DNA of 64,000 nucleotides. Origin: Fennellomyces sp. T-0311. Lineage: Eukaryota > Mucoromycota > Mucoromycetes > Mucorales > Lichtheimiaceae. This document shows, in pieces, positions 7,351-36,207 of the stretch. The translations under genes were made by a program, and so were the position numbers. The notes beneath the pieces were generated by a model, which searched no databases, had not been told where the DNA came from, and saw only the letters and a list, made by a program, of their open reading frames with translations. How positions within the stretch are numbered: position 1 is the first letter of the stretch; each line of letters begins with the position of its first letter. The stretch covers positions 682,001 to 746,000 of the forward strand of contig JALLLT010000002.1 of NCBI GenBank assembly GCA_025266875.1, in the 5' to 3' direction.

Positions 7351-7980
7351 CTAAAGAGCCCCTTCGGTCTTATTCTGCGATCCTCCATGGTCAGGATTTT
7401 GTTTTTGATCGTTCAAGGTTCGAGTTTCATTCACTTTGGCTGCCCAGATACGTTTCGCATCCATATTCTTGGCGTATGGAAAGTCGCTACCGTCTGCCCA
7501 TTTAACTGCGGTGGTCGGATTAGCACCAGTACCTCCCAATGTAAGAGCACCTCCACCAGGACAAGTAATCTCAAACGTATCAAGACTCTTGTTGTCACCC
7601 GAAAAGCGATGTACCTATATTCATTATTAGCATCAATTGGCATATTATTTCACTGCTACTTTCTGACAATACATACATAGAATCTGACGATGGCATTGGC
7701 ATTTTGTCCTATGACACAATCTTTATTGCTGTAGTTGCAGCATTGCTTCTCACCAGCGCGTATGCGATCTTTCTTAAACCTATTATCGGTTGCTCAGTTG
7801 TATTTTCTTAGTAAGCTTTGTTAAAGTAAGTACTTACGCCTTATTAGAAGTGCTACCGTAACCATCGACCTCGCTAATGAAGAATGCCGTTCCGTCTGTG
7901 TGCTGGTTATAGACACAGAAGCTGTATACATAGTATGGCAGTGTAGTGATTGCAAGTGTGATCAGAGATAAGCAACGCAT
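7351..7980 (-). CDS. Small secreted cysteine protein, array copy A
   Basis: Three exons on the minus strand (7980-7838, 7779-7677, 7614-7351) give 169 residues. Introns are phase 2 and phase 0, the template for the array. Exon 1 encodes a signal peptide (MRCLSLITLAITTLPYYVYS) then FCVYNQHTDGT; exon 2 has AGEKQCCNYSNKDC; exon 3 has ITCPGGGALTLGG, VKWADGSDFPY and a tail with NETR and QNKT. Five mature cysteines match the siblings. I do not recognise a named domain. Alternating hydrophobic stretches with GGG and WADG turns suggest a small beta-rich fold. Secretion is inferred from the signal peptide. The tail carries two N-glycosylation sequons (NET, NKT). Confidence 0.85.
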
Positions 7981-8035
7981 AATGTTTTCCGGTAAGCAAG
8001 ATATCTCTGTGATCGATTTGTTCCCACGTACGTTC

Positions 8036-8044
8036 CTTATATAC
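8036..8044 (-). promoter_or_regulatory. TATA box of copy A
   Basis: TATATAAGG on the minus strand, about 56-64 bp upstream of the copy A start codon. Similar boxes precede most members of the array. Confidence 0.55.
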
Positions 8045-8594
8045 CACGCCTTGATTGATTGTTCTGTACATTATCAGCTCTCTTTCATTCTTCTTTTGCT
8101 TCTTCTCTCGTCAACATGTATAAAGAAACCAGAGTTCAATTTGTGCGACATCGCTCCTTGATATCTGGAGAAGATTAAATGATCTAGCATGGTCTCCGAC
8201 CAATTATTGCCTTGTGCGTAAATCGGCGTGAACAACAAAATCGTCAGTATCTGATATTTCTTCTGAATGCTATTGGTTTCTAATATTATGGTCAGAAAAT
8301 CCTCATGATCAGCAAGATAAGAAAAAAGTAGTATCTTAAGGCTGACACGTGGAAATTAGTAATGTCCATAATGCACGTTTTCAATTGACGGAGACGCTTT
8401 TTTGCGAGCTCAAAGGTGGTCTGTAATCTATATGCATCCATTGCATATCATATCTCGCTACGCGGTGGAGTTTAACGATGAATAGATCAAATAATGTACT
8501 TTTTGGTGCATGCATAGCCCCTATGGGAGCCTCGGCATATTATTTCAAGAGTTGTGTGGTAATTTTGTCGCCTCACTCATTGTTCTAAAATACT
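8045..8594. other. Intergenic between copies A and B
   Basis: AT-rich spacer. No coding or repeat signal was recognised. Confidence 0.5.
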
Positions 8595-9137
8595 TTAGCT
8601 AGATGGTCTGGATACGATCGAGTCTGCGAAGTTGCTACCGTTTGCCCATCGAACGTCGACTATTGGATTAGCCGCAGTACCACCCAGAATCACAGAGCCG
8701 CCACCAGGACAACTAATCGTGTAATCAGTCATATACCCTGTCTCAACACCACGGTGCACCTATATATAAATAAGGTTGACATATATTAGCATCGTATTGA
8801 CAACACTCCTGATCTTTTTTTTTAAGTTAGAACCCACAAAGAATCTAACAAAATTACTGGACTTCCCACCGGCCACGCAATCTGTATTACTATAATGACA
8901 GCATTGTGTTTCGCCTGGTGACATTTGGCCCGTAGCAAAGCTCCTATATATTTTCCCTATTAGAAAAGCTTCGCCACAATCTATCATGACAACTTGCTTC
9001 TCGAACTCTCCACCGTAGCCATAGGATTCTTCCAACCACACCAATGTTCCGTCTGTATGCTTGTTATAAATACAGAAGCTGCACACGTTGAGGGGTAAGG
9101 TAATGACAACAAGGACGATTGATGACAATAAAATCAT
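8595..9137 (-). CDS. Small secreted cysteine protein, array copy B (first intron lost or unspliced)
   Basis: The frame is open from 9137 to 8838, then one intron (8837-8760), then 8759-8595, giving 154 residues. The signal peptide is followed by FCIYNKHTDGT; then come SPGETQCCHYSNTDC, ISCPGGGSVILGG and VRWANGSNF. The siblings have a phase-2 intron before exon 2. Here the matching stretch (about 8992-8943) starts GT and ends AG but is 50 nt, and removing it would break the frame, so the product reads through it as about 17 extra residues. The C-terminus stops soon after the WANG motif and lacks the NKTR-like tail of other copies. It may be a functional variant or an early pseudogene. Confidence 0.65.
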
Positions 9138-9757
9138 ATTTTCGTTGTGCCAATAGCGAAGATAAAGTGCTCTGGCAACTTGTTCCCTGAAAATTTAAAT
9201 ATAGATCGTTGCTGGTAGAATCAGGTTGAACCATAGAGTTCAGGGGGCGCTTTCTGCTTTCATTTTCTTGTTTCATTTTGATCTCACACACAAGTCCATA
9301 TATAGTTTGTCACCGCTCCATATAATTTGCATTGACCGGAATACTCCACCAGTGCTTTAGTGCTTTTGTCCGACAGCAAAATACTACGCATTGCCCTGTG
9401 ACGCGTGCTGCATATCGCAAATCTTTGTACGTAAGCAAGTCAAAGTGATCAAATCTGAGTACTAATAATGATCCGGTGGATGACAACACTTGGAAGTATG
9501 TTGCTATAAACATAAGGTTAACAGTTTGACCAAAGGGCTACGCGAAATGATACCAAGGACATTATCATGGGGGTTAAACATATTGGTTGTCATTTTTCAT
9601 TATTCAGTAAACTCTATGTTTCATCTAGTTTCAATCCTTTTTTCTGGTAGTGAAGTAATGTCTGAGAACAATGCTTGAAGAAGGGCTAGATATTGATAAA
9701 GAAAATGTGGTAGATCTCGATGACCACACACTCTCTAATTATTTCTGAGTATGATCT
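9138..9757. other. Intergenic between copies B and C
   Basis: A TATATTTAAAT box near 9191-9206 (minus strand) lies about 55-65 bp before the copy B start. Nothing else was recognised. Confidence 0.5.
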
Positions 9758-10328
9758 TTAAAAGCACTTCCCGCGACAGTAGTAACCTTTTTTGATATAA
9801 TTCGTTCTCGTCGGATTATACATGATATTTGCGCCGAAATTGCTTCCATCTCCTTTCTTGACAGTGAAAGTTGGGTTACTTGCAGTTCCACCAGCAACAA
9901 TATAACCGCCACCAGGGCAGGTGACATCGTAGTGTCCAACCATTTTATCACCGGAGAAGCGTTGAACCTATAACGTTTTTTATGCACAGCTCCCAAGCAT
10001 GAGATCCTTGCAGTCAACTAATTTACATGTATACTTACATAAAACTCGACAATCTCATCGGCTAGTATTAAAAACGCAGTCCTTATTATGGTAATTGCAG
10101 CAACGGCTATCTCCTGGATCCACATTATGATGGTCGAAACGGCTACAGGGTTGATGAGATCCTTGCCTTTGACGTTTTGCTTAAAAGCACCTAACGACTG
10201 GGACTTGACCCATAGCCAAAAACTTGTCGTATAGAAATTTTGGTACCATCGAAATGTTTGTTATAAATACAATAGCTGTATGCATCGTATGGCAGGATAA
10301 CTAGGATCAGTAATGTGAGGAGATGCAT
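9758..10328 (-). pseudogene. Small secreted cysteine protein, array copy C, probable pseudogene
   Basis: Exon 1 starts at 10328 with a good signal peptide and YCIYNKHFDGTK. Exon 2 (10142-10039) still encodes DPGDSRCCNYHNKDC, and exon 3 (9967-9758) encodes VTCPGGGYIVAGG. Two lesions are visible. Exon 2 is 104 nt instead of the 103 or 106 of its siblings, so the ADEIVEFY end lies in a different frame from the CC motif. No phase-2 donor exists at the end of exon 1, where TAG follows directly. Exon 3 also ends differently, in a tail with CRGKCF that adds two cysteines. A sequencing error could explain one lesion but hardly both. Confidence 0.7.
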
Positions 10329-10963: not shown

Positions 10964-11608
10964 TTACAATAGTGATTTTTTGGGCGTTTTCCCCGTCTTA
11001 TTATGGTGACCCCAATCATCGTCGTTAAAACCAGCTGCTCGTGTTTTGTTCAGATCTGTGTAAAATCGACCGGTTCGAAAGTAATCCAGTTTATATGGAT
11101 AATCCGCCCCATAGTGCCACTTGACTACGAAATGAGGTTGGGATGCATTGCCTTGGAAGTAGAGGCTGCCGTCACAAGGCACGGTAATCTGACCTTTGTA
11201 CGCGATATTGCTTTTATCAACATTTCTGTAGAACTAGTAGGTAATACACATTTATTAGCATAACAGTACATCCATCGCTTGCGTGATAATGGCATACACA
11301 CATCAAATTTAACAATATCCGTTTGGACCTGATTGGCACAGCAATGTCTCCTCGTGTACGAGCAGCAGTGGACTGCCCCAGGGCGTACATCGTACACTTG
11401 AAATCTAAAACTGTATAATTCATGAGAATGAGGTAATATAGAAGCGCATAATACCAAAAACGTACGCTTTGGGGATGCGGCTGTAGTTTTCAACTTGGTC
11501 AACACTAATTGTTGTACCATCCGTATGTTGGTTAAAAACGCAGTAACCGTAGACACACTGCGATGTGGCAGCAATAACAGCAAAGATGGAGAATAATAAA
11601 ACGCGCAT
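10964..11608 (-). CDS. Small secreted cysteine protein, array copy D
   Basis: Exons 11608-11466, 11404-11302 and 11233-10964 give 171 residues; exon 1 (143 nt) and exon 2 (103 nt) match copy A exactly in length. A signal peptide precedes YCVFNQHTDGTT. Exon 2 reads RPGAVHCCSYTRRHCCAN, with one extra cysteine. Exon 3 departs from the common pattern: FYRNV replaces the HRF start and TVPCDGSLYFQGN replaces CPGGGY. The tail has DLNKTRA and a His/Asp-rich HHNKTGK, giving two NKT sequons. D and E share these features and form a subgroup. Function unknown. Confidence 0.83.
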
Positions 11609-12364: not shown

Positions 12365-12366
12365 TA

Positions 12367-13226: not shown

Positions 13227-13848
13227 CTAGTTTTGTTGCTTGATCTTCTTGTTCGCCCCATGATGGTCTGACTTATCTTTGCCCAGGCGATGTGCACGTG
13301 TTTTGTGCAGGTTTACAAACATCTGACCTCTGGTGGAATATTCCAACTCGTATGGGTAGTCGTTACCATCTCCCCATTTCACTACAAAGTGGGGATCTGC
13401 CGCGGTGCCTCGAAATACGAGCCTGCCGTCGGCAGGTACGGTAATTGTTCCCCAATGGGCGGTATAGTCATCATTAACATTTCGATAAAACTATATTATT
13501 TTAACTATGCGTTCTATTTTCACTGTTTGATAAGGTATCACGTACTTTAAATTTAAGGATATTAGTCGGAGCCTTCGGTTTATTATTACAAGATTTTTCG
13601 TCGGGAGCGCAGCAATAGTACTCGCCAGGACGGATATCGTACTTCTGAAATCTACCACTGTATGACTCATGAGCGAGAGCACTAATAACCAAAGTTATCG
13701 CTATTTACCTCGCGGGGCCACCATAATTTTCAACTTGGTCAACGCTAACCTCCGTAGCGTCCGAAACGTCGTTGTAAACACAAAAACTGTGGACATAATG
13801 ATGTAGCATGGCGACAATAGCAAAAACGGAAAGTGACGAAACGCGCAT
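13227..13848 (-). CDS. Small secreted cysteine protein, array copy E
   Basis: Exons 13848-13709, 13651-13546 and 13490-13227 give 169 residues. The signal peptide is followed by FCVYNDVSDATE. Exon 2 has RPGEYYCCAPDEKSC; exon 3 has FYRNV and TVPADGRLVFRG, then VVKWGDGNDYPYE. The exon 3 cysteine conserved elsewhere is replaced by alanine (VPADG against VPCDG in copy D), leaving four mature cysteines. The tail has HKTRA, where the NKT sequon is lost, and a His-rich DHHGANKK. Closest to copy D by exon 3 features. Function unknown. Confidence 0.83.
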
Positions 13849-15344: not shown

Positions 15345-15882
15345 CTAGTAACTATGAGCACGATATTCGATTGTAGCTGGATAATCGCTGCCATCTGCCC
15401 AGTGAACTTTAAAGACTGGGGAATCCTTATTTCCTCCCATCGAGATCCAGCCACCTCCAGGACAACTGATATCATAGCGTCCCAAATCCTGTCTCCCAGG
15501 ATAAAGTCGATGTATCTACATAGCGCGGTGTGTTAGTACCAGTGCTTTTATGATTGGTGCTTTTTTGGTTATCCTACACGCAAGGTAACTGGATTTCTCG
15601 GGTCTCTTTGGTTCACACAAGTTTTCTCGGTATATGGGCAGCATGCTTTTTCGCCTGGCTTTACAACCCATTGTCTAAAACGTCTACATAATTTAGAAGT
15701 GAGCACAGTGGCAAAAGTAAAATTTTACCAGCAATTACGTACTCTGTGACAATACCCTGGAAGCCTCCAATTTGGTAAATAGATATGTATGTCTCATCCG
15801 TGCTTTTGTTGTAAACGCAGAAACATTGGACACAATGCTGCATCGTAGCAAAAGCAAAGATGAACAAGAGTGCTACGCGCAT
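15345..15882 (-). CDS. Small secreted cysteine protein, array copy F
   Basis: Exons 15882-15743, 15683-15578 and 15515-15345 give 138 residues. The signal peptide is followed by FCVYNKSTDETY. Exon 2 has KPGEKACCPYTEKTC and exon 3 has ISCPGGGWISMGG and VHWADGSDYPA. The product ends shortly after the WADG motif, without the NKTR-like tail, so this is a short form. The exon 2 motif seems the least derived in the array and would be the best query for distant relatives. A CATATAAATA box at about 15933-15943 lies about 50-60 bp upstream of the start. Confidence 0.83.
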
Positions 15883-16485: not shown

Positions 16486-17244
16486 TCAGAGCTGGATAAT
16501 TTGATGGGTTGTCAATCTTCGCTTCCTGTTTAAGTTTGTTCTGAGCGTTGGCGATGCCCGAAGCGTCGATGTTGTGGCTGATAAGACTCTATCGCCTTTA
16601 TTGCCGCCTCGATTGCTGTAAGCCTCGTTCATATGCATGATGGGGTGCAGTGCTTCAGAACCATAGGATATCTGATTTCGCCGAACTATCGGAGGATAGC
16701 CAGGACGTTGGCCCTCAATCAGTTTTTTGCCATCAATCAAGTATGGGAAGTCGCGTCCGTCGGCCCACTTCACCAAAATGGTTGGATTTGGTTTATTTCC
16801 GCGAAATATGATGTAGCCACCGCCTGGACATGTGATATCATAATGATCCACGTCAGAGCCACCGCCGTCAAGACGTCGCACCTAGGGAACGGCACATATA
16901 TTAGCATGACTGTTTAATGCTTTACAAAGTAGATCTTACAAGAAATTTGACAATTTCGTCCGGCTTCCCACTTTTATTACAATCGGTATTACTGTAGTGA
17001 CAGCACTGTGTTTCGTTAGGGCGTATGTTATCTTGACTGAACCGCCTGTAGAGTTTGTTAGCGAGTCTATATAAAATTTTCATCCTAAATAAGGCATTTA
17101 CGTAGATTTTTTGCCACCGTAACCATCAATTTGGCTGATATAGATTGATGTGTCATCCGAATGCTCGTTATAAATGCAGAACCCGTTGGCGTAAAATGCA
17201 GGTAATGCGATTATAGCCGTAGTCAACAGTGATGTAAGGCGCAT
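16486..17244 (-). CDS. Small secreted cysteine protein, array copy G (long tail)
   Basis: Exons 17244-17102, 17045-16940 and 16881-16486 give 214 residues, the longest copy. The signal peptide is followed by FCIYNEHSDDTS; exon 2 has RPNETQCCHYSNTDC; exon 3 has ITCPGGGYIIFRGN and VKWADGRDFPY. After the common core comes a tail of about 80 residues, basic and Ser/Thr/Asn-rich, with no cysteine and no NKTR motif. It resembles no other tail in the array, so it may have arisen by read-through into flanking DNA or by replacement. Function unknown. Confidence 0.8.
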
Positions 17245-17634: not shown

Positions 17635-18218
17635 CTATTCGTTCTCGCTATTGAGCTTTCGAGATTCTTCTATATCAACGTAATTGTAGTAAATACTGGG
17701 ACCCACAGTAATGGTATACTCATACGGCATATGGTCAGCGTAATTCACTGCGATTTTGGGATGATCCGCGGTTCCGTAGCCACCTGCTGGACAGTCGACA
17801 TTATAGTGCCCCAGATCCTTCGCATCATGAAAACGGTGAATCAAATTTAATCTCAATCCTTATTAGTAAACCTTTTATGCTTGTTATTTGTAAAGGAAAA
17901 CGGCATACATAGAAGTCGGTAGTATGATTCAAGTTTGGGGTCGCAGAGCACTCAGAATTGGTATAAAGGCAGCACTGCTTTTCCCCGGCTTGCATATGGC
18001 GATGACGGAACCGACTATACATACGATTTATGAGCGATGCTTACTACTATTTTACAACCAAAAAATACTTGCTAATGGTGGTTTGCTTTCTTTGATTGCC
18101 CCGAAACCTGACGAATGTATATTTCTGTGCCGTCAATATGTTGATTGTAAATACAATAACCGCAGATCAAATACGGTAACATAGCGAGAGTAAAGCTGAA
18201 AAATGTTGAGAGTCGCAT
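17635..18218 (-). pseudogene. Small secreted cysteine protein, array copy H, probable splice-site pseudogene
   Basis: All three exons are recognisable. Exon 1 (18218-18085) has a signal peptide and YCIYNQHIDGTE; exon 2 (18014-17909, 106 nt like the siblings) has QAGEKQCCLYTNSEC; exon 3 (17841-17635) has VDCPAGGY. Two of the four splice dinucleotides are gone: the first donor, expected right after AAAGC, reads AA instead of GT, and the second acceptor, directly before the conserved IHRF, reads TG instead of AG. The exons themselves have no stops. Either the gene is dead or it uses unusual sites giving altered products. Confidence 0.68.
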
Positions 18219-18595: not shown

Positions 18596-19191
18596 TTACT
18601 CTTCATTGATAATCCTGGTTTTGTTTAAATCAGCAAAATAACGGTATCTAGGTGGACCATAATTGATTGTATTATGATAATCTTGCCCGGTTATATACTT
18701 GGTAGTATATACCGCATGAGGTCCAGTACCACTGACTGTAAGGGTGCCACCAGCAGGGCAATCAATCTCAATTGCTCCAAGGTCGCTCCCGTGGTAAAAA
18801 CGGTGTACCTTTATAGAATATAATCCATGTGTATTTTCAGTACTCTTACCAAAAAACAACGCGATAATCTTACATAAAATTTAACGATACTGTTTTCATC
18901 CGAGCTACCGACGCAACTTCTATTTGTGTGTGCGCAGCATTGCATTTGACCAGGGAGTACATGCTTATAACGGAAACGTCTAAAACACGATAAATTCATC
19001 TATGAGTGTGTATTTGTATACTTTTTATATAACAGCACTCACGCATAGTATCCTGTACCCTTCTTGAAGCCATCGGTTTGGCGAACATAGAATTCCGTGT
19101 CATCGCTGTGTTGGTTGATGACACAGAATCCGTAGACGTTGCATGGTAGTAAAAGTAAAGCCAGAATTAACAGTGGAGTAAAACGTAACAT
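18596..19191 (-). CDS. Small secreted cysteine protein, array copy I
   Basis: Exons 19191-19043, 18979-18874 and 18808-18596 give 155 residues. The signal peptide (MLRFTPLLILALLLLPCNVYG) precedes FCVINQHSDDTE. Exon 2 has LPGQMQCCAHTNRSC; exon 3 has IDCPAGGTLTVSG and ends with a DLNKTRI motif close to the C-terminus. The usual WADG is replaced by YITGQDY. Copies H and I share CPAGG and a similar NYGP/TVGP turn and look like neighbours by duplication. Function unknown. Confidence 0.83.
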
Positions 19192-19618: not shown

Positions 19619-19640
19619 CACCTCAGAAAAAAAAAATTCA
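19619..19640 (+). repeat. Left terminal inverted repeat of the CACTA element
   Basis: Begins CACCTCAG followed by an A run and ATTC. It pairs with 24740-24761. The preceding TTC is the target duplication. Confidence 0.8.
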
Positions 19641-19869
19641 AAAAATATTTAAAAGCTCGTAACGCAAAATAAATTCGAAATGGCCCCTTTTTTGAATTTC
19701 CTTTTGAATTATTTTTGAGTGTCTGAATTGATTTTGAATATAAATAATTGCTTTGAACTGCTTTTATTTTTGTTTTTTATCCATGAGACGTATCAATATG
19801 CTATTACATCCAGTGAAACAATGAAACCATGACAACAAAATATCAAGACGTTCCTGGGTATCTGGGGTA

Positions 19870-21394: not shown

Positions 21395-21490
21395 GGGAGT
21401 GAATGTGGTAAAAGCTGTAAAGTTGTTTTGGTACTAAGTACAGTCAGTCACTCCCAATAATCTCACTCTCTTAATTAAATCACTGCCACC
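21395..21490. promoter_or_regulatory. Divergent promoter of the CACTA genes
   Basis: Only 96 bp separate the two opposite start codons (21394 minus, 21491 plus). The promoter is therefore shared or overlapping. Confidence 0.6.
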
Positions 21491-24400
21491 ATGCCCAGCG
21501 TCCAGTGCTATGGCTGTTGCTATATAATTACTGGTACAACCACTGAAATCAAGGATCATTTGGATGAATGCATGCAAGATCGAGTGCGGTTAGATTGTGA
21601 AAGCCTTGCATTCGGAAGATCAGTAAGTGCAATTGTTCGTGTCGTTGACAAGGAATACTAAGTATATCGTTTTGCCCCATAGACAAATGGTGAAAGTTCA
21701 ACTGCTGCCATGCTACCTGAAGCACACCCTACAGGTGCCCTGGCACCTCTCACTGATCTTAATAATCAGTCTAGTCAGGTACGATCCGATACATTATATT
21801 AATAATCGAATATTCATGGAGTATGTACTTGCAGAATGCTGGAAGTAACTTGGAGAACATGGGTCCAAATTACGATTACGATTATTATGGTGACCACTGG
21901 ACAGATGATGATGCCCCACCGATAGCCCCTGATGCCTCATCGATCACCACTGATGCCTCACCTATTACCACTGATGCCCCACCGAGCAGCCTTGACGCTC
22001 CAACGATCATCCTTCACGCCCCATTGAGCACAGCTCCTGAACCCATGGAAGTTGACGACCTTGAACTGCGCTTGAGCCAAACTACTCCGTCACTAAGCAA
22101 TATATTCAACACACAGCTGCAAGCTGGACTTTTGGAGTCATTGGATGCAAACTCTCCCACTACAGCTGCAGACGGCTCCGAGATAATCGATCTGCGCGAA
22201 TTTCACCTTACTAACGAAAGCCATATTCAATGTAGCATGGATTTGTATGCAATGGCAGCGGACGCCGGTTTACCTCGAGAAACATTTGATGCTATGATGC
22301 GACGCGTCAACGCTTACATCGAAGGTTTACGTCCAAAATTGTTGAGCTTTTATCGAGCAAAAAACGAATTGCGGCGGAGCTATCCTGTCAAACCAAAACC
22401 ATACGATGTATGCCCTGACGGGTGTAAAATGTACAAAGATGACGATACTCGTGTCGAATGTGAACATTGCAATAAACCACGGTACAAGGATGGGTCGACG
22501 ACGCCAGTTAAGCAGATGCAGCAACTGCCACTGAAACAACAGCTGGCCGTTCTGATCAAGGATGAAGAAACACGTAAATTGTTGAAGTACAGATCTACTC
22601 GTCAAAGGACAGAAGGCGTTTTGAAAGATGTGTTTGATGGAGGCGTCTACAAGGAAATGGAAATGAACAACGAGCTGTTCAAGGACGATATGGATATCGC
22701 TTTGGGATTATATACTGACGACTTTACGCGGTTTCGGCGTGGCGGACAATCCATGATGATCGTCCATCTTGTAGTCCTCAATCTCCCCCCTGATGTGCGG
22801 TATGAAGACAAGAACATGTTGCAGGTTTGCGTGACTCCTGGCCCAAACAAGCCCCACGACTTGTTCAGCTTTCTGGCTCCCCTTTTGGAGGATCTTAGTT
22901 CGCTTTGCCACCGTGGCATTACTGTCAAAACTGAAAAAGGTGATTTTACTGCAAAAGCACATCTTTTTTTTGCGGGCGGCGACATTCCTGCTGTATCCAA
23001 ATTGGCTGGGCATTCGGGGCACAGCCATTACCGTGGTTGTCGTTTCTGTACGATAGAAGGTGTCTACATCAACCATACTATGACATTTCCACCCATGAAA
23101 AGGAGGGGCGAAGGAGGTATGGATCTAGTAATACATACATTGCAGCTGAGTAATCGCTCGCGTGAACTTTTATAGAAACCCGTCTAAAACTCAAGATAAG
23201 ATCTTCAGCCTCGTACACAGAAGTAACTGATGTGAATGCCACTGGTCAAAAGCAAATCACTCCGTTTGCATCCTTACCGACGTTTCACGGCGCTACCTTT
23301 TTCCCAATTGACGTGATGCATCTCCTTGGGCCTGGTATAGGGAAGCATTTGTGGCGTGTCATTTGTGGCGACTTCGGCGTAGAGAACAATCCATTGTATC
23401 TAGACGGATCTCAACGGCAGTTACTTGGCGCGAGAATATCCGCGTCCCGGACTTTGATTCCCTCGTCGTTTGCTGGCGATTGCGGTGATCTGACGTACCA
23501 GAGCAGCTTCTTCAGGGCCGTAGATTGGATACACTTTGTGCGCTACTTTGTGCCTACTGTGTTATTGGAGTTTTACGATAACAGCGACACTCGAAATGCG
23601 CTTCTTGACTTAGCCATGATTTACCACTACGCATTTAGTCGCGAGTTACAGGTGGATCAGCTTGCTGAACTCAAGGCAACGTCTACTTCGTTCACTTCAT
23701 GGTTACAAGGTCACGTTGATCAAGGCAATATTACTCCTACTGTCTTTACTCCCAATGTTCACTACCTGTCCCATCTTTACAAGTATATTGAAAGAGTTGG
23801 ACCATTGCCATTCGTTGCGGCGTTTGCTATGGAGCGCGCAATTGGAACTGTGAAGCGTAGAATGAACTCAACAAGGTATCCGGGAACCAATGCTGGTAAT
23901 GTTTTGATCGATTTGGCTGCTATACGACGACGTAAAAGACAAACCCAGAGCAATGACGAAAACCACAACCAACAAGAGGACCAAGACGATGAACAAGTCG
24001 ACATCTCAACTCAAAGGAAGAGCAGTGTGATTTTCGTGTCGGATGAGAAAAATAGTCCAGAAATCTGGGGCCCATTTGCGCAAGATACAGTTCGCGACCT
24101 CAATTGTCGTAGTTACCTTAGAGACTTCTGGGCATGGCAAAATCGATCGTACACAGGTGTGAATATCAATATGGAAGAGCTTCTTGAAACTGGTAGTCGA
24201 CTGCTTAAGGACGGAGTGACATACGGAGGAAGCAACAAGGAGTCCTTTGTCGTTTTACAGGTATGGGTAGATAAAAGCCGGCAGAATCGTACGAATCAGA
24301 ATGTCGTCCCCATCCATCGACAATATTTCGGGTCTATCAAGTTTTTCTTTAAGCATCAGTTCAGCGACTCAGAAAAGCTTCTGGCATTTGTTGAAGTTTA

Positions 24401-24602
24401 CCGTACCATAGAAATTGACGGGCCGTATCCGTATATGACAGAGTCGGGAGGATCAAAGTATCTTGTAGTGGATATTGACAACATCGTTGGCTTTGCCGGT
24501 CGCGCACAAGGATGGAATACACGGCAATACGTCTATTGGAAACGTCAAAATTCCCCTCCCCATCAAGATCTGCCTATAGATCATGGCTTGGAATATATAT
24601 GA
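21491..24602 (+). CDS. Tnp2-type CACTA transposase
   Basis: Four exons (21491-21622, 21683-21778, 21835-23116, 23176-24602) give 978 residues with no interrupting stop. The Tnp2-like features appear in order: a cysteine motif CPDGCKMY...CEHCNKPRY near residue 280, DIALGLYTDDFTRF, LNLPPDVRYEDKNML, GPNKPHDLFSFLAPLLEDL, then AHSHYRGCRFCTIEG-like cysteines, and PIDVMHLLGPGIGKHLW in the last exon. An N-terminal stretch of Thr/Asp/Pro-rich repeats (SSITTDASPITTDA) is probably disordered. Transposases of this class cut the element ends and integrate it with a 3-bp duplication. Catalytic acidic residues were not assigned. Together with the flanking repeats this looks like an autonomous copy. Confidence 0.85.
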
Positions 24603-24739
24603 TATGCACATTATAAATTGAATATTTCTTGAATATTTTCTGAAAGAATGATTATTATCTGAATATATTTTGAATTATTGAGTTCTTTTTGAAAACTTGA
24701 ATTATTTTTTGAGTTAATTTTAAAATTTTGATTTGTTTT

Positions 24740-24761
24740 TGAATTTATTTTTCCTGAGGTG
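24740..24761 (-). repeat. Right terminal inverted repeat of the CACTA element
   Basis: Reverse complement begins CACCTCAGG, then an A run and ATTC. TTC follows directly at 24762-24764. Confidence 0.8.
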
Positions 24762-25461: not shown

Positions 25462-26105
25462 CTAATCAGTATTGTTTCCTCGTGTCTTGTTCACACCGGT
25501 ATCGAAGTTGCCCACTTGTGTCTCGTTTAAACTTGTATCATGGTTGAGCTCCCGTGTCTTGTTTAAATTGGCAGAAAGCCACCGCGTGTGTCCATTGTTG
25601 TCTCGCTCGTACAGATATGGTGTTCCGTTGGCGAAATGAACCTTTACTTGAGGGTTCAGTTCATCACCCCATAATACGATATAGCCACCACCAGGACAGG
25701 TGATTTCGAAATGATTTATCTCGCCTCTTGTATTAAATGTCCTTATCTTTTTACAGCTCATGCATTAGTATTCTTTTTATTAGACACTCCATTACAGCAT
25801 AGCTTACATAGAATTTGACAACACTGTATTCATCGCCGCCAACGCAAGTCTTTTGAGTGTGATGGCAGCATCGGTATTCTCCTGGCTTGACGTCTTTATG
25901 TTTAAAGCGCCTATATGAATCCTTTATGAGCTTGCTATCAAAATGTCACGCCAGATGCTTACGAAAAAATTGTCCCTCCGTGGTACCCAGCAACTTGACG
26001 TACAAAAAACCTCGAATCGTCGGAGAAATCGTTGTAAATGCAGAAGCAATAAACAAAGTATGGCATGGTAATGATGGCGAGAACAAATAGCGTCAGGATG
26101 TGCAT
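25462..26105 (-). CDS. Small secreted cysteine protein, array copy J (repeated sequon tail)
   Basis: Exons 26105-25963, 25910-25808 and 25746-25462 give 176 residues; exon 1 and 2 lengths (143 and 103 nt) equal those of A and D. The signal peptide ends in a FCIYNDFSDDS start. Exon 2 has KPGEYRCCHHTQKTC; exon 3 has ITCPGGGYIVLWGD and VHFANGTPYLYE. The tail has three related units, LNKTRE, LNETQ and VNKTR, each an N-glycosylation sequon, at intervals of about 14 residues, plus NNT. This looks like local duplication of the NKTR unit that other copies carry once. Function unknown. Confidence 0.84.
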
Positions 26106-27716: not shown

Positions 27717-28347
27717 TTATTTGAATTGCCGCTTCCTGCGAGTACTCTTGAGACGGTTCTCCATTTTACGTGTTTTTTTCAAGTCGGCAAAAAACCAATG
27801 ACTCTTTTGATCATGTTCAACTGTATATTGATAAGGCCGACCATCTGCCCAGCGAACGTCAATAATTGGTTGAGTTGATGTACCGGAAAGAACAATGTAG
27901 CCTCCAGCTGGGCAATCGATCTCATAGTTACCGACACCAAAACCTTGATCAGATTTCAAAACAATCTATATATGTATTACCAGCACATTAGAATACATGC
28001 TTAAACGAGAATATTCTAGCCAAATTACTAACCCAAAACTTAACAATGTCTTCGGCATTACCATTAGCGGCGCAATCGTTATCTTGATAGCTGCAACATT
28101 CAGACTGGTCGGGTGTAACATTCCACTTTTTGAATCGCCTATAATAAAATGAACAAATTTTCGCTATTCGAACTTTTATCGCATTATATCGAACGTACGC
28201 ATTCAGTTTAGCATGTGGCCCTTGTCCAGCAATTTGGCGAATAAAAAAACTGGTGCCATCAGAATGCCTATTATAAACGCAATAACCGTGTGCATGGTCC
28301 AGCAGTGCAATGAGGACAAAGAGAAGAAGGGATAAGATGCGAAACAT
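27717..28347 (-). CDS. Small secreted cysteine protein, array copy K
   Basis: Exons 28347-28199, 28138-28033 and 27965-27717 give 167 residues. The signal peptide (MFRILSLLLFVLIALLDHAHG) precedes YCVYNRHSDGTS. Exon 2 has TPDQSECCSYQDNDC; exon 3 has IDCPAGGYIVLSG and VRWADGRPYQYT, followed by DLKKTRK, where the NKT sequon of other copies has become KKT. The C-terminus is strongly basic (RLKSTRRKRQFK). The start at 28347 was chosen over an upstream in-frame ATG because it begins the signal peptide. Function unknown. Confidence 0.84.
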
Positions 28348-28635: not shown

Positions 28636-29283
28636 TGTTGGCGCCGTTTTGAGTCAGGTGTACAGTAGTCGGTTGTTGTGTAAATTGGTAGTTGAGTACA
28701 CCAAAATATAGTGAGCACCAGCAACAATATCGTTTGTTACGGACGTTTGTATAAAGGGATCCTAAAGAGGATTGAGGATTGAAAATAGAAAATGGGTAGT
28801 AAAGCAAATTGTCTTTATTGCTTGATCGATAAACAGTAATCCTAATTGCAGGACACTAAACAACACTGATAACTATAAAGTATTTAGGTTGGGGTGTTGA
28901 TAAATGTAATCAATTGACCAATGTTTATTTAATGAAAAGCGCTTCATATTTATATCTTTCGATACAATGGCGCAGCACTAGCTATTCTAGCTGTGATAGG
29001 TGCATACGGTAACCAATTGATGATGGTGTAGTTGCCGCAGCAGTGGGGGTAAAGGTGATTGGTGTTGTTCATGCAGGCTAATTGCTGGCTAGTGGTGGCG
29101 CAGCTGCCGCAGTAATTGATATGTAGAGTGCCGCAGCAAAGAAGATTCTGGCTACTAAGCTACTCTATTGGGTAATTGTGGGTGATAATGGTAATGTATA
29201 TGATATGATAATACAAGAGAGAAGAGAGAGGAAGAGAAAAAGGGAAAGAGGAAAAGTTGGCAGGGCTACCAACATGTCTATCA
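28636..29283 (-). repeat. 3' LTR of the retrotransposon (left copy)
   Basis: 648 bp. On the element strand it starts TGATAGACATG and ends GGCGCCAACA, the canonical TG...CA. No difference from 34945-35592 was seen by eye. Confidence 0.92.
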
Positions 29284-29313
29284 GATTGCCCCGGCCGCGC
29301 GAAACGCGTGTCC

Positions 29314-29736
29314 CTACGCGTTGTTGGGCGCATCTTGGGTGCCTTTTCGGTGTCGTCTTCGGTGTTGCCACGGTAAAGATGGTCGGGGGTGGCCGGCGGA
29401 TCGTTGTCGCGGTTGCGACGGGTACAAGAGCGTTGTTGATATCGACGATGCGATCAGAGAGGAGTTTTCCTTGTATTGGGTTAGGTCGTCATCAGAGTCG
29501 GTCGTCGTTGGAGAGGTTGAGCTCCGGGATGAGCTGGAAGTCGAGAAAACGTCGGATATCAGTTCCTCATCTTGAGCAAGGATGTTGCTGAGGAGAGCAG
29601 AGTTCATTGGATCGGTGTACGGTGGTTGGAGGGATTTGTGGATAGGAATAATGATGTGCCTCTTTTTTTTTTTTTTTTTTTTGTCTTTATATACATTTTT
29701 TTTGTTTTGGAATCTTCTTTTACTGCGATGCTTCAT
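29314..29736 (-). CDS. Open frame between pol and the 3' LTR, function unknown
   Basis: An open frame of about 140 residues begins with a Lys-rich stretch that includes an A-run (KKKKKKK), then a Ser/Thr/Asp-rich part and a Pro/Arg/His-rich end. No integrase, chromodomain or envelope feature is visible. It may be a chance frame in the low-complexity 3' part of the element. Confidence 0.3.
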   Translation of the reverse strand: MKHRSKRRFQNKKNVYKDKKKKKKKRHIIIPIHKSLQPPYTDPMNSALLSNILAQDEELISDVFSTSSSSRSSTSPTTTDSDDDLTQYKENSSLIASSISTTLLYPSQPRQRSAGHPRPSLPWQHRRRHRKGTQDAPNNA

Positions 29737-29940
29737 TTTCCATCGTCATTCATTCATTTTTTTCTTTGATCTTGTTAAGCGGTAAATATAAGATCTATCT
29801 TGAATGTGCTGACTTCATCTTCTAGCAATCTTCTTTTCTTTTTAATTTATCTTTTGTTTCGACTGGTTTTTTTTTTTCTTCTTTTTTAATCTGTTTTATG
29901 TACTTCTTTACAGCAATCTTCTAATGTGTGCTCCTTTTAA

Positions 29941-30219
29941 CTAGTTCAGTTTCGCAAGTGAGGTGATCTTGATGCTTGAGAGTAAAATGGCGATAATCCG
30001 TGTCTGGCAATCGGTATGCAGCACAAAAAGTGCTTCTTCAGCGCCGTCACGTGCTAACACTGGTTTCGGTGGGTCTTCGGATCGGAATAGCTTGTCTCCG
30101 TTGACAAAGTAACGTTTGCTTTGTTGTCTGATGTTTTTTCGGCGTTCGGCGTCGTAGCTTCTTGGGATTTCGAGGGTTTCGAGGTAATGCTTCAAATCGT
30201 TGTATTGTTGTTCGTCCAT
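29941..30219 (-). pseudogene. Integrase N-terminal remnant
   Basis: From the ATG at 30219 the frame reads YNDLKHYLETLEIPRSY, then a region ending FVNGDKLFRSEDPP and ALFVLHTDC. This fits the segment leading into the HHCC zinc-binding domain of Gypsy integrases, where a first histidine is followed by a longer module. Here similarity stops right after that first histidine, and the catalytic DDE core is absent. The frame differs from that of pol, which ends at 30329. A deletion within the integrase region is the simplest reading. Confidence 0.55.
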
Positions 30220-30328
30220 TGATGTAATTTGAAGTGTAGATAGGGTGGATCGAGGTGTACCGGTGGTGTAGGTCGTGGGAAATGTAAACAATCGGTCGAA
30301 TAAGGAATGGTTATCCCTTTGGCTCAGC

Positions 30329-33300
30329 CTAATTGTGGTCGGTCCGGAATTGAGGCGGCGTGCCTTCTTCTTGTTCTCCTTCGTCGGTGTCAAGTTCTTC
30401 AGCCAGGTCATTTCGTCCGTCTTGTGTCATTGCTTCAGGTTCATTGTCGTACATTCTGCTGAGGTAGTCGGCTGCGCGATTCTTGGTGCCCGGAATGTAT
30501 ATAACGTCAAACTCGAATTCGCTGAGGTAGGTTACCCATCTGGCCCAGATTCCTATGGGGTCTTTTTGCTGGAGTATTCCTTTCAGCGGGCGGTGGTCGG
30601 AAGCAACGATGAATGGGTACGATATAAGGTATTTCCGTAGCAGTCGGCAGGACCAAACAAGTACACAAGTTTCGAGTTTACTTGCACTATAGTTTTTCTC
30701 GGTCTTCGATGTCCTTCTGGAGATGTACTGTATAACGCGTTCGTTTCCTTCTTGATCCATCTGGCTGAGGATTCCACCTAGGCCGTTCTTGCATCCATCG
30801 ATAGTGAGCTTGAATCCTGCTCTTGAAAAGTCTGGTCTGGCAAGTACTGGGGGCGTCATGAGGGCTTCTTTTAGCTGTGTGAAAGCTAATGTATGTTCTT
30901 GAGTCCAGGGTCCGGCATTGTTTTTCGTCAAATCGTGTAGTGGTCGAGCTATCTTGGCAAATCCTTGTACGAAACGTCGGTAGTAATTGCACAATCCAAG
31001 AAAACTCCTGAGTTGCGTAACGGTCCTTGGTATCTTGATGTCTTGAATCACCTTGATTTTCTTGGGATCGGCCTTGGTTCCTTCTCTTGTGATAACCATG
31101 CCCAAGAATTCCAATGTCGTGCAGAAGAAATTCACTTTGTCCGGGTTTAGCTTCAAGTTCGCCCATCGGAATTTCTCGAAGATAATGCGTAGGTGCTCAA
31201 GATGTTCCTTCGTATCCATGCTGAAAACGTTTAGGTCGTCGTAAAAGTAGGTGCAAAACGCGATGTTGGAGAATACAATTGACATCAGGTTGCTAAAGAC
31301 AGCTGGTGAAGTCTTTAATCCTTGGCTGCTCCGTAAAAAGCTGTACTGGCCGAGAGGCGAGGTGAATGCTGTCAAAGGGATTGACTTTTCATCCAGCTTT
31401 ATCTGGTAATAGGCGTTGGAGATGTCGCATGCTGAGTAGACTTGTGCGTTGCCAATACTGTCGAGTGCGTCTGCTATCTTGTTGACTGGGAAGTTGTTGC
31501 CTCGTATCTTTTGGTTGATCCGTCTGTAGTCGATGGTCAGGCGAAAGTCTCCTGATCGTTTCTTCACCATGATGATTGGGGCAGACCATGGGCTTTGAGA
31601 GGGTTGTATGATTCCTAGGCGGCAAAGCTTGTCAAGTTCCTTCTTGAGGGCTTCAAGTTCCACAGGCGCCATGCTGTACGGTCGGGATCGAATAGGTAAG
31701 GTCTTTTCTTCCAAGATTATTTCATGCTTGATCAGGTCTGTGCATCCAATGGTTTCTCCGTCCCAGTTAAAGATGTCTTGATACTGTTCGGCCAATGCTC
31801 GAAATTGTCGTTCAATCTTGTTGTCCTTGTCATCCGGGATTTCCTTTGGCTTTATCCGTATGTATTGTTCTTCAAACAGAGGGTCCGGTTCGGTTAAGGG
31901 TCTTGTGGCTTCCTTCAGAGTGAATAATTCGTTTGCTGATCTAGGCTCTAGTCGTACGGGTTCGTATCCAAAAACATCCTCGGTTGGTCCAGTCATTTTC
32001 GGGTAAATCTCTCCAAGGTAGGTTCCTGCTGGTAGGGTTCGCGGTGTGGTGGACTGATTGTGCAGAACCAGTTCGAAATCACTCCTTCCTGTCTTGATGG
32101 TAGGTATGTGTACGATGTCCACAATATCCAGGTTGCTGATATCTTGTGCAAATGCCAGTTTCCTTGTAGCCTTGTGAGGTAGCGATCCTTTCAAACACAG
32201 TTGACTGTGGGTTGGTATGGAATATTCGACATCGGTGAAAACGAGGTATATGGTTTCGTCGTCATCCACGTGCTTTTCGATCCGAAGCCTTGGGTCTGGT
32301 CGGTCGTCCAATAGGTAAAAGTCCGTAGCTTTGCCAGTTTCTTCAAAGTCACTGTCTGATGCGTCTTCGTCGTCTAACGCTTCAAGTTCGCTATCCGTGG
32401 ATTCTTCGTTGTCATCTTCGGTCTCCGTGGTATCATCTGGGCTGTCGTCGCTTTCTTCGCTGATGGGTAATGTATCGTGCCATGTATCGGATTCTTCCGC
32501 AAATGATAAAGGGATTGCCGCATTTTGTCGTCCGTATTTTATAGTAAGCGTAGCGTCTTCAAAGGAGATACAAGCATAGCTCTTCGTCAAAAAGTTGTTG
32601 CCAATAATCAGGCCAACGGGGCAATGTTGGAGGACTTCGATATCGAGAGGTATGCTGATAAAGTTGCCGGGTCGTATTTCCACATTTCGAATTCTGCCGA
32701 GGGATGCTTGTTGCGTACCATTGCCGAGGGTGAATACGGCATCTGAGGGAGCATTGATTCTGAGGCCTAAGTACTTGGCGGTGGCTCTTGACATGCACGT
32801 TTTGGCAGCACCAGTGTCGACGAGTGCTTTCAATATCGTTCCGTTTATGCAAAACCTTCCGTAAGCAGCAGTAGGATTGATTCTTGGCTGGAGTTCCATG
32901 GCATTAGGTGGTCGTCGGATTTTTCTGCGAATCGAGGTGGTAGCGTGCAATTGTCTTCGTAGCGAGGGAGCCACAGCAACTAAGTCCTTGATCGTGATAT
33001 TCGCCGTTCTGTTCATTACGTCTTCCGTGATATCGTAATCAATCTTGGCCTTGTGTTTCGGAGTCCTCGGTTTGCTGTTTTCATTCGAAAGGGTCGGTGT
33101 ATTCTTCTTTATCGGCTGTTTCCTTTTTGGTTGGTCGATTTCCATGGGCTCTGGATTAATCCTTCTGGCAGTGGTTTCCGTTGCTTCTCTTCCTTGTTCA
33201 TTTTGGTCATTCGAGTTATTTATGTCAGGTGAAGATCGGTTTTGGAGTCGTTGCTCTAGTTGCGGTCGATGCACTTGTTGTTGCCTTGAAGTTGACGGTC

Positions 33301-33553
33301 CAGGATCTGGGATCACTACGGGATCTGCGAAACGTATCGGCTGGTTCTTGGGTTGCCTCTTGTTCTTGTCGCTGCGTCCTGTTCGGTCTACAGTAGCTCC
33401 TGATCGTAGCCTGATTTGCCTTCGTTCATCGGTGGGTTTCGAAGCTGCGAAAAGTTCCTGGGTTCTGTTGTTCTGGCTCCTTTGATTGTTCTGAAAGTTG
33501 GTTCTAACGGGTTTGGTGTATCGGCGGGCGTTCAGTTGACCGTTATTTCTCAC
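30329..33553 (-). CDS. Retrotransposon Pol: protease, reverse transcriptase, RNase H
   Basis: A 1074-residue open frame on the minus strand. In order: a basic Gln/Asn-rich leader, an aspartic protease with ALVDTGAAKT, an acidic linker, reverse transcriptase with FRLTIDYRRIN, the substrate pocket FLRSSQGLKTSPAVF and the catalytic YFYDDLNVF, then RNase H with TIDGCKNGLGG, ASKLETCVLV and VASDHRPLKG. The frame ends in an acidic tail instead of running into integrase. It opens in the -1 frame relative to gag with no ATG at the junction, so expression as Gag-Pol by frameshifting is likely. Confidence 0.92.
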   Translation of the reverse strand: MRNNGQLNARRYTKPVRTNFQNNQRSQNNRTQELFAASKPTDERRQIRLRSGATVDRTGRSDKNKRQPKNQPIRFADPVVIPDPGPSTSRQQQVHRPQLEQRLQNRSSPDINNSNDQNEQGREATETTARRINPEPMEIDQPKRKQPIKKNTPTLSNENSKPRTPKHKAKIDYDITEDVMNRTANITIKDLVAVAPSLRRQLHATTSIRRKIRRPPNAMELQPRINPTAAYGRFCINGTILKALVDTGAAKTCMSRATAKYLGLRINAPSDAVFTLGNGTQQASLGRIRNVEIRPGNFISIPLDIEVLQHCPVGLIIGNNFLTKSYACISFEDATLTIKYGRQNAAIPLSFAEESDTWHDTLPISEESDDSPDDTTETEDDNEESTDSELEALDDEDASDSDFEETGKATDFYLLDDRPDPRLRIEKHVDDDETIYLVFTDVEYSIPTHSQLCLKGSLPHKATRKLAFAQDISNLDIVDIVHIPTIKTGRSDFELVLHNQSTTPRTLPAGTYLGEIYPKMTGPTEDVFGYEPVRLEPRSANELFTLKEATRPLTEPDPLFEEQYIRIKPKEIPDDKDNKIERQFRALAEQYQDIFNWDGETIGCTDLIKHEIILEEKTLPIRSRPYSMAPVELEALKKELDKLCRLGIIQPSQSPWSAPIIMVKKRSGDFRLTIDYRRINQKIRGNNFPVNKIADALDSIGNAQVYSACDISNAYYQIKLDEKSIPLTAFTSPLGQYSFLRSSQGLKTSPAVFSNLMSIVFSNIAFCTYFYDDLNVFSMDTKEHLEHLRIIFEKFRWANLKLNPDKVNFFCTTLEFLGMVITREGTKADPKKIKVIQDIKIPRTVTQLRSFLGLCNYYRRFVQGFAKIARPLHDLTKNNAGPWTQEHTLAFTQLKEALMTPPVLARPDFSRAGFKLTIDGCKNGLGGILSQMDQEGNERVIQYISRRTSKTEKNYSASKLETCVLVWSCRLLRKYLISYPFIVASDHRPLKGILQQKDPIGIWARWVTYLSEFEFDVIYIPGTKNRAADYLSRMYDNEPEAMTQDGRNDLAEELDTDEGEQEEGTPPQFRTDHN

Positions 33554-34863
33554 AACTGGCCCTCCTCGTTTTTTGACTGGTATTCAGAATATTGGGCAGG
33601 TCCTTCAAAGTCGTCATTCCAGGTGTAACCGTATTGATCTTGTTCGTCGTCTTCAAGGTATCCGTCGTCTCGATGTTCGATGTGTGCAAAGGTTTCGAAT
33701 TGGTTTCGTCTGTCTCCTTGCTGTTGAGGTGGTTCATTCACAGGTCGTTGCACATTCGTATGATCTTGGTTCCTTGGGTAATCAGTCGATTGTTGAGCTT
33801 GGTTCCGGTTTTGACGTGGTTCTTGATTGGCTTGACGCGGTGTCCATTGTTGTTGGCGAGGTGGAGCGTTTCGTTGGAGATCGTTATTAGGTCCTTGTTG
33901 TCGATTCTGGTGGTAAGGCGGTTGAGGTCTGCTTTGGTAATATTGCTGCTGTTGCCTGTCTTGATATGAGAGCGATTGCTGATTTCCGTGTGCTTGGTTC
34001 GGCTGCTTTTGATAGAATGCGCGTTGGTTGTTGTATCGAGGCGGTCGTTCATTCCATCGATTTTGGTATCCGTCGTTGTTTCGTCTGGTGAAGCCGTTGT
34101 TGTTGAAAGGTCGATGTGATCTCTGCTGTTCATATTGACGATACTGGTCGTATTCGTGTCTTGGTTCGTCGTAATACTGCATGTCTTCAGCTTCCATTGC
34201 GGCAATCAAAGGAATACGCGATCGTCGTCCGTGTCTGAGTGTGGCTTCGGCCTTGCGTCCTTCCCAAAAGCTTTGGGCGACATCAAAATGGTCTACGGTG
34301 GCGATACCTCGAACCATCATCCAGTAGTGCTTGATTTCCGGCAGTAATCCTTGCTTGAACTTCGATTGGATTCGGTCTTCGTCGATGATTTCGGCTTTCT
34401 GGGCGGCTTCTCGGATTCGGCTCATGAACGTTCGGGGGCTTTCGTTGTGTCTCTGGCTTATGGCATCAAATTCTTCGATGTAGCGTAAAATGTCGTTGTA
34501 CGTCACGTATTCGGCTTGAAATTGGTCCAGGATATAGTCGATTATGGGTTGGGTCCTCTGCGTGTCTTCGTTTGCCAATTGGCTTCGGGCGATAAAGTCA
34601 GGGTAAACGTTCATTTCGAAAAAGGTCAATGCAGGTCCTCGGAGTACGGCGTGGAAAAGTTCAACTTTTCTATCGGTGGTCTGTGCGCCAGCTAACAGAA
34701 TGTAAGATTTGAATTCTCGCCTGAATTCACGAAAATCTTCATATTCGTGGCCGGAAAAGATAAGAGTCGGTGGTGGGAGCATGGTGGTGATGTTGTCCAA
34801 CACAGTAAGTTCGTTCGTCAAAGGTTTGTCGTTTCTGTTGTTCCGGAAAAGGTATCGGTACAT
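33550..34863 (-). CDS. Retrotransposon Gag, no zinc knuckle
   Basis: The first ATG of the frame is at 34863, giving 437 residues; the open frame itself extends upstream almost to the LTR. The N-terminal half is a retrotransposon capsid-like region (LIFSGHEYEDFREFRREF, then LRGPALTFFEM). The C-terminal half is very rich in Gln, Asn, Arg, Pro and Tyr, with no CCHC zinc knuckle. RNA binding may instead come from the Arg/Gln-rich tail. Gag ends with TGA at 33552-33550, overlapping the pol frame. Confidence 0.88.
   Translation of the reverse strand: MYRYLFRNNRNDKPLTNELTVLDNITTMLPPPTLIFSGHEYEDFREFRREFKSYILLAGAQTTDRKVELFHAVLRGPALTFFEMNVYPDFIARSQLANEDTQRTQPIIDYILDQFQAEYVTYNDILRYIEEFDAISQRHNESPRTFMSRIREAAQKAEIIDEDRIQSKFKQGLLPEIKHYWMMVRGIATVDHFDVAQSFWEGRKAEATLRHGRRSRIPLIAAMEAEDMQYYDEPRHEYDQYRQYEQQRSHRPFNNNGFTRRNNDGYQNRWNERPPRYNNQRAFYQKQPNQAHGNQQSLSYQDRQQQQYYQSRPQPPYHQNRQQGPNNDLQRNAPPRQQQWTPRQANQEPRQNRNQAQQSTDYPRNQDHTNVQRPVNEPPQQQGDRRNQFETFAHIEHRDDGYLEDDEQDQYGYTWNDDFEGPAQYSEYQSKNEEGQL
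33568..33574 (-). promoter_or_regulatory. -1 ribosomal frameshift slippery heptamer
   Basis: A AAA AAC in the gag frame (codons TCA AAA AAC), 15 nt before the gag stop. It fits the X XXY YYZ rule, and slipping by -1 continues straight into the pol frame. A downstream stem or pseudoknot was not assessed. Confidence 0.72.
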
Positions 34864-34944
34864 GTAATTTCGTTCCGTGAGTTGTGTATCCAAGGTCTCG
34901 TCTGCTGGAAAAGCCTTGAATTCCCCTGTAGTGAGCACCAAATT

Positions 34945-35592
34945 TGTTGGCGCCGTTTTGAGTCAGGTGTACAGTAGTCGGTTGTTGTGTAAATTGGTAG
35001 TTGAGTACACCAAAATATAGTGAGCACCAGCAACAATATCGTTTGTTACGGACGTTTGTATAAAGGGATCCTAAAGAGGATTGAGGATTGAAAATAGAAA
35101 ATGGGTAGTAAAGCAAATTGTCTTTATTGCTTGATCGATAAACAGTAATCCTAATTGCAGGACACTAAACAACACTGATAACTATAAAGTATTTAGGTTG
35201 GGGTGTTGATAAATGTAATCAATTGACCAATGTTTATTTAATGAAAAGCGCTTCATATTTATATCTTTCGATACAATGGCGCAGCACTAGCTATTCTAGC
35301 TGTGATAGGTGCATACGGTAACCAATTGATGATGGTGTAGTTGCCGCAGCAGTGGGGGTAAAGGTGATTGGTGTTGTTCATGCAGGCTAATTGCTGGCTA
35401 GTGGTGGCGCAGCTGCCGCAGTAATTGATATGTAGAGTGCCGCAGCAAAGAAGATTCTGGCTACTAAGCTACTCTATTGGGTAATTGTGGGTGATAATGG
35501 TAATGTATATGATATGATAATACAAGAGAGAAGAGAGAGGAAGAGAAAAAGGGAAAGAGGAAAAGTTGGCAGGGCTACCAACATGTCTATCA
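34945..35592 (-). repeat. 5' LTR of the retrotransposon (right copy)
   Basis: 648 bp. No base difference from the left LTR was seen by eye. The sequence just inside (TTTGGTGCTCACTAC on the element strand) is the candidate primer-binding site; no tRNA was matched. Confidence 0.92.
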
Positions 35593-35627
35593 ATAGGTAG
35601 GTCAGCAGATTTAATAAAAGAGTACGT

Positions 35628-36207
35628 TTATGAAATTATTCGATCATGAAGTACTCTATGCACAAATGGACTCCCATCAGCAAACGTGACTTTACGACTA
35701 GTATCAGACCAAGTTCCAGAGAATATAATGTAGCCACCTGCAGGACACTCAATTTCATAACTTTCGCGATAGAGGGCATCGTTCGAAACTAAAACCTTTG
35801 TTACGTGTATGATCAAATTAGTAACATAAATGCCATTTGAATAGCATAAACTATATTGTAAGGACGAGCGCTTACCCAAAGTTTTATAATTCTATGGGGA
35901 TCCGAGTATAGGGCGCAGTCCGGGTTAGTATGCGGACAACACTTTTTTTCATGAGGATGGAGATTCGTTTGTTGGATTCGCCTATATTTTTTGCTTAAAT
36001 AATCAGCTGCAGTGATCATCTTTTTTTTGTTCGCTTAATATGGTTCACAAATACATACCCGAGTTGGGCACTTCTCGGGGATTGTCCGGCGATCTGACGA
36101 ACAATTAATTGTGTGTTGTCAGTATATTGGTTATAAAGACAGTAGCTGTCAATGTGGTGTAGTAGATCAGTTAGCATGAGTAATAATAGTAACCGGAAGG
36201 CGTGCAT
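35628..36207 (-). CDS. Small secreted cysteine protein, array copy L
   Basis: Exons 36207-36059, 35981-35876 and 35795-35628 give 140 residues. A signal peptide (MHAFRLLLLLMLTDLLHHIDS) precedes YCLYNQYTDNTQ. Exon 2 has HPHEKKCCPHTNPDC; exon 3 has IECPAGGYIIFSG and VTFADGSPFVH, and stops soon after without the NKTR-like tail. Copies K and L share CPAGGYI and equal exon 1 and 2 lengths (149 and 106 nt). The retrotransposon target duplication ends only 31 bp beyond the stop codon, so its insertion may have altered the 3' UTR. Confidence 0.83.

Follow-up and report, generated by a model that had tools for sequence, protein, structure and literature searches.

Fennellomyces sp. T-0311, a soil mould whose genus belongs to the Lichtheimiaceae, carries in amplified form a family of small proteins so far detected only in Mucorales. 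The window analysed here is a stretch of 64,000 nucleotides of its genome (C95:682001-746000; assembly of 45.6 Mb in 182 contigs), which carries a tandem array of twelve genes of this family. An earlier note on this stretch had described small secreted-type paralogues without a named family, in an array interrupted by two transposons, and this description is supported by the present analysis. New, on sequence evidence, are the presence of the family at eight locations in the genome, the array among them, and its spread across Mucorales. The analysis defines a protein family without Pfam match, of which a single protein was found in most relatives, Rhizopus microsporus included, compared with about 40 places in one mould; this offers a clean handle both on the basic role of the protein and on its expansion.

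The twelve genes lie on the minus strand, from position 7351 (stop codon of g1) to position 36207 (ATG of g12), each with three exons, as previously proposed and as found again by a six-frame motif scan and manual splicing (Table 1). Exon profiles trained on 20 family copies from outside the window matched exon 1, exon 2 and exon 3 in 12/12 genes each, all on the minus strand, with E values from 1e-4 to 9e-18; up to an E cut-off of 0.01 they gave no further match in the window and none in the reversed window. Chance resemblance among the array genes is ruled out by these hold-out profiles together with the reversed-window control. Ten models splice cleanly; their introns measure 51-80 nucleotides (nt), the first being in phase 2 and the second in phase 0. 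In g2 a GC donor is required, intron 1 being GC-AG. The exon 1 of g3 has a stop codon at the site of the donor of the other genes and its exon 2 a frame break, so that scripted splicing is possible only with the end of exon 2 dropped, and for g8 a GC donor has to be assumed and exon 3 cut short. The "nine intact" proteins of the first count are therefore ten clean models, or eleven if g8 is counted. GC-AG introns apparently occur in two array genes, g2 (8998) and g8 (18073), with the same donor GCAAGT. The array copies are 29-46% identical to g1, whose translation equals NCBI BJV82DRAFT_573768 (Fennellomyces sp. T-0311) over 169 residues. The public model BJV82DRAFT_573769 (window 8595-10328) is a fusion of pieces of g2 and of the broken g3; beyond g1 and this fusion, no array gene was present among the public proteins returned by protein searches. 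The array is judged to be real, and its genes appear to be maintained.

Protein searches and exon profiles of the whole genome place the family at 40 sites on eight contigs (12 on C95, 13 on C107, seven on C68, three on C144, two on C113 and one each on C118, C79 and C46). A further place on C99, from the first pattern search, was dropped, its best exon match having an E value of 0.42. Clean spliced models were obtained for 31/40 places (32 by script, less the forced g3); the remaining nine are g3, g8, the C46 place and, in C107, four places that allow a candidate splice and two that allow none. Two copies at C113:33929-36175 face apart and encode identical proteins, which may reflect palindromic duplication of recent date or an error of assembly. 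The copy at C107:319187-320144 apparently has an intron 1 of about 515 nt, against the usual 60 or so. Six public Fennellomyces records were returned, three of which equal the models described here (g1, C68:412894 and C113); among the other three, one is extended at the N terminus, another differs at its end and the last is the g3/g2 fusion. Public annotation has few of the Fennellomyces family genes correct.

Relatives have been found in eight other mucoralean genera. The Fennellomyces profile matches proteins of Blakeslea trispora (4.7e-18) and Pilaira anomala (1.5e-15), and a profile made from these two returned, out of 23 candidates, 10 proteins with E values of up to 1, both query proteins included, adding Choanephora cucurbitarum, Thamnidium elegans, Helicostylum pulchrum (two records), Cokeromyces recurvatus, Rhizopus microsporus, Phascolomyces articulosus and one 71-residue metagenome piece. 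With the database size set to 1e6, a Fennellomyces-only profile recovered 10/10 relatives at 1.6e-8 or better, the reversed sequences scoring 230 or worse. One protein was found per relative species, apart from the two Helicostylum pulchrum records; this is a lower bound, from a search that relied on annotated proteins sharing five-letter words with the query. The mucoralean hypothetical proteins BD560DRAFT_420679 (Blakeslea trispora), A0J61_04758 (Choanephora cucurbitarum) and BDA99DRAFT_561956 (Phascolomyces articulosus) are thus true relatives. Like the Fennellomyces copies, the mucoralean relatives have the CC-x(6)-C and P-x-G-G core; they are uncharacterised, and 7/8 of those in the tree lack the extra cysteine of the array type, whereas Phascolomyces has it. 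In two scans of the available collections of prokaryote and viral contigs, 25 and 10 pattern matches included no relative, each scan using a single peptide pattern that weak relatives could escape. No description of the family was found among the literature matches listed, by title and start of abstract, in a search that mostly did not reach subscription papers, and no paper was found under BJV82DRAFT, the strain name or Phascolomyces articulosus; the family is undescribed in the sense of not found in the sources searched.

In a tree of 38 rows, one branch splits the 30 Fennellomyces sequences from the 8 relatives with a support of 91/90, under the 95/80 mark. The copies of C68, C107, C144, C118 and C113 form one group of 19 rows (100/100), and the array genes are scattered over the remainder, with the C79 copy adjoining g11 and g12 (87/56). 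If the root lies between the relatives and Fennellomyces, the expansion would have occurred in the Fennellomyces line, with the array as its older part.

From a biochemical perspective, each protein is predicted to consist of an N-terminal signal peptide followed by a mature part of some 110 residues, among them four conserved cysteines. The signal region is recognised by its sequence pattern and by a low-confidence N-terminal helix in AlphaFold models. Thirty Fennellomyces sequences share C22, N25, C58, C59, C66, G101 and G107 without exception, and the core (Cys and Asn of FC(I/V)YN, CC-x(6)-C, Gly of P-x-G-G) recurs in the alignment of the relatives, with one record lacking C22. A fifth cysteine stands directly ahead of the P-x-G-G core in 8/10 array models, in C79 and in Phascolomyces; in g4 it is displaced and accompanied by a sixth, and g5 has none. 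The odd number of cysteines points to dimer formation or to an unpaired thiol. Many copies carry variable C-terminal tails, of up to about 80 residues (g7), and four or five N-glycosylation sequons are present in g1, g4, g10 and C107:327004. The mature protein is predicted by AlphaFold to fold as a transthyretin/Ig-like beta-sandwich with the four conserved cysteines (mean predicted local distance difference test, pLDDT, 82.4; predicted template modelling score, pTM, 0.75); the model of g1 has a mean pLDDT of 74.0 and a pTM of 0.64. Against a viral structure library no match under 0.001 was obtained.

The shared motifs claimed for the array were counted by eye in the twelve genes. The motif (F/Y)C(V/I)(Y/F/I)N was found in 11/12 genes, g12 having L, and CP(G/A)GG in 10/12, g4 and g5 being without it. 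For exon 2, CC-x(6)-C is present in 12/12 genes, but the full string PGExxCCxYTNxxC occurs letter for letter in 0/12. That most genes have WA(D/N)G was overstated, since only 5/12 do.

Selection was measured as the ratio of nonsynonymous to synonymous substitution rates (dN/dS) by a counting method. The 25 pairs of closest copies included no pair within the array; 22 of them had a dN/dS of 0.16-0.52 in the mature part, one was identical in protein and two were saturated. Within the array 15/45 pairs were measurable, with a dN/dS of 0.23-0.55, and 30 were saturated; dS was at least 1.5 in 12 of the 15, so that these values are rough, and under 1.5 in three. General positive selection was sought and not found, dN/dS being below 1 in every measurable pair. 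One region departs from the rest. When five separate pairs from C68, C144 and C107, that is, from outside the array, were pooled, the loop at residues 38-47 of P0002 had a dN/dS of 0.74, against 0.27 in the strands, 0.19 in the other loops, 0.18 in the signal peptide and 0.14 in the CC loop. The mean entropy of this loop exceeds that elsewhere in the protein only slightly within the array (1.89 vs 1.40-1.74) but by a wide margin in the 19 other copies (2.48 vs 1.07-1.66). The description of these proteins as fast-evolving is hence correct only in part: the array copies are far from each other, but the ratios of the measurable pairs are below 1, with one loop near neutrality. The family is constrained and not freely diverging: dN/dS below 1 implies that the copies are maintained; one loop is either released from constraint or under pressure to vary, and this is clearest in copies outside the array.

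That the proteins contain no named domain was confirmed, as Pfam scans of 10, 30 and 14 members and an NCBIfam scan of 30 gave only isolated hits that involved no more than two members each, the strongest being a collagen-flanked repeat at 0.002 in one member; a named domain as the identity of the family is ruled out by these scans. Sequence searches of the PDB gave in one case four matches at 0.45 or worse, in another none, and in another one at E 1. Plant SPH/PrsS proteins are small, secreted, disulphide-bonded beta proteins of multigene families (PMC6439154). The present family resembles them in being small, of secreted type, predicted to be beta, cysteine-bearing and multigene, although the fold match (PDB 6g7g) is weak, identity in structural alignments is 6-8%, SPH proteins come from plants and there is no Pfam match between the two (PF05938 was absent from the matches of 30 and 14 members at E up to 1). 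In the same scans, at E up to 1, no cytolysin model and no thaumatin model was matched. Compared with domain 4 of cholesterol-dependent cytolysins, the Fennellomyces protein is small and stand-alone; for thaumatin-like/PR-5 proteins, Mal d 2 appeared only at a Foldseek E value of 0.12. The enzyme 5-hydroxyisourate hydrolase has conserved catalytic His and Arg residues; in contrast with it and with transthyretin, the family has no invariant or near-invariant His or Arg and no sequence match. The MAX and ToxA-like effector families of plant-pathogenic fungi are likewise expanded, small, cysteine-bearing secreted beta proteins. The likeness is one of kind only, since they belong to another phylum than Fennellomyces, for which we know of no plant host, and neither a MAX nor a ToxA fold was present among the fold matches listed (50 rows).

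As to function, we tentatively favour, well short of confidence, secreted binding proteins in which a fixed scaffold would carry a variable loop that meets an outside partner. The protein would leave the hypha, its disulphides would hold the scaffold rigid, and the contact site would be the loop joining strands 2 and 3, which is variable both in length and in sequence. Duplication might then have given many versions of a single scaffold that differ in their contacts, directed at partners that a mould may meet outside, such as competing microbes, grazers or other mycelia. The main rival, somewhat less probable, is a cell-wall or spore-coat protein, that is, a secreted structural or matrix component, single in most Mucorales and amplified for dosage in Fennellomyces, with the sequon-bearing tails serving to anchor or hydrate. 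The single protein per species in most relatives, the purifying selection over nearly the whole protein and the tails with sequons in some copies agree with it, and the odd fifth cysteine of the array models would permit cross-linking. However, selection for dosage does not predict copies as dissimilar as those of the array, no hydrophobic anchor was noticed in them and no Pfam wall-protein model was matched. An expansion by birth and death without new function, in which regions rich in mobile elements duplicate a tolerated gene whose copies drift and decay, would account for the 9/40 places that are broken or without a settled model, for the transposons within and beside the clusters and for the near-neutral loop; it is nevertheless unlikely, because the 31 clean models with conserved phases and a dN/dS well below 1 indicate that most copies have been kept working.

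An antimicrobial or membrane-acting role, with the sandwich binding lipids or glycans of competitors or grazers, seems about as unlikely. The fold matches that would support it rank level with those to transthyretin, HGSNAT and PepT2, and membranes are therefore not indicated by the fold; moreover, no cytolysin model was matched and no conserved hydrophobic tip was seen. Host interaction, competition and self/non-self recognition, the roles named in the earlier note, are suggested by analogy. A ligand for self/non-self or mating-partner recognition, which would work like plant SPH/PrsS, is improbable. Equally doubtful is the boldest version of the binding-protein reading, in which Fennellomyces would possess a set of thirty to forty secreted, transthyretin-like proteins for recognition; their disulphide scaffold would be fixed, specificity would lie in a single loop, and the set would discriminate mycelia, partners or microbes. 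If true, an early-diverging fungus would have a recognition system based on ligands, with an origin independent of the plant SPH proteins.

The two transposons separate g9 from g10 and g11 from g12, respectively. After subtracting both, gene starts are 903-2242 nt apart, in agreement with the 0.9-2.2 kb given before, and the array was therefore continuous before the insertions. In the DNA transposon, the transposase region (21775-24602) has two overlapping open reading frames (ORFs) in different frames, of which only the first matches Pfam Transposase_21; two minus-strand ORFs at 19793-21433 (203 and 263 amino acids, aa) run opposite to the transposase, the 263-aa one with a sub-cutoff syntaxin-like match only. 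The other element, a long terminal repeat (LTR) retrotransposon, encodes reverse transcriptase, RNase H and protease on the minus strand, and the identity of its LTRs suggests a recent insertion.

Table 1. Genes of the array and inserted transposons (positions in the window).
Feature	Position	Strand	Description
g1	7351..7980	-	169 aa; exons 7980-7838, 7779-7677, 7614-7351
g2	8595..9137	-	136 aa; exons 9137-8998, 8943-8838, 8759-8595; GC-AG intron 1
g3	9758..10328	-	broken; stop ending exon 1, exon 2 frame break
g4	10964..11608	-	173 aa; exons 11608-11466, 11410-11302, 11233-10964
g5	13227..13848	-	171 aa; exons 13848-13709, 13657-13546, 13490-13227
g6	15345..15882	-	138 aa; exons 15882-15743, 15683-15578, 15515-15345
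g7	16486..17244	-	214 aa; exons 17244-17102, 17045-16940, 16881-16486
g8	17695..18218	-	doubtful; exons near 18218, 18013, 17841; low end approximate
g9	18596..19191	-	155 aa; exons 19191-19043, 18979-18874, 18808-18596
DNA transposon, Tnp2-type transposase ORF	19619..24761	.	36-nt inverted repeats 83% complementary; TTC on both sides
g10	25462..26105	-	176 aa; exons 26105-25963, 25910-25808, 25746-25462
g11	27717..28347	-	167 aa; exons 28347-28199, 28138-28033, 27965-27717
LTR retrotransposon	28636..35592	-	648-nt LTRs identical; ATAG on both sides
g12	35628..36207	-	140 aa; exons 36207-36059, 35981-35876, 35795-35628

As regards the genomic context, no partner gene common to the clusters was found, only mobile elements, in the fetched stretches and among ORFs of at least 60 codons, a scope that a short or intron-rich partner could escape. 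The ORFs common to C113 and C68 were rejected as a partner gene, being a Tc1-type transposase, as were those common to C144 and C68, which are part of a repeat with 132 genome matches. The ORF of this repeat at C68:425477-426385 has a weak helix-turn-helix match that falls short of the curated cut-off and is probably a mobile element. Three of five flanking ORFs scanned with Pfam gave a match (aminotransferase, CCCH zinc finger, C2 domain), and they give no pointer to function.

Upstream of the ATG, a strict TATA pattern at 41-66 nt is present in 21/31 genes but in only 3/10 array genes; in the other array genes, looser A/T boxes can be made out by eye. Enrichment upstream of family genes was seen for the 8-mer TCGTAGGT and for TATA-like 8-mers; no inference is drawn from them, since related promoters share descent. 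In seven copies (five from C68 and two from C113) GTAGGTA lies 26-28 nt upstream of the TATA-like box, with a background of 0.11 per kb on both strands, and its recurrence may be explained by shared descent.
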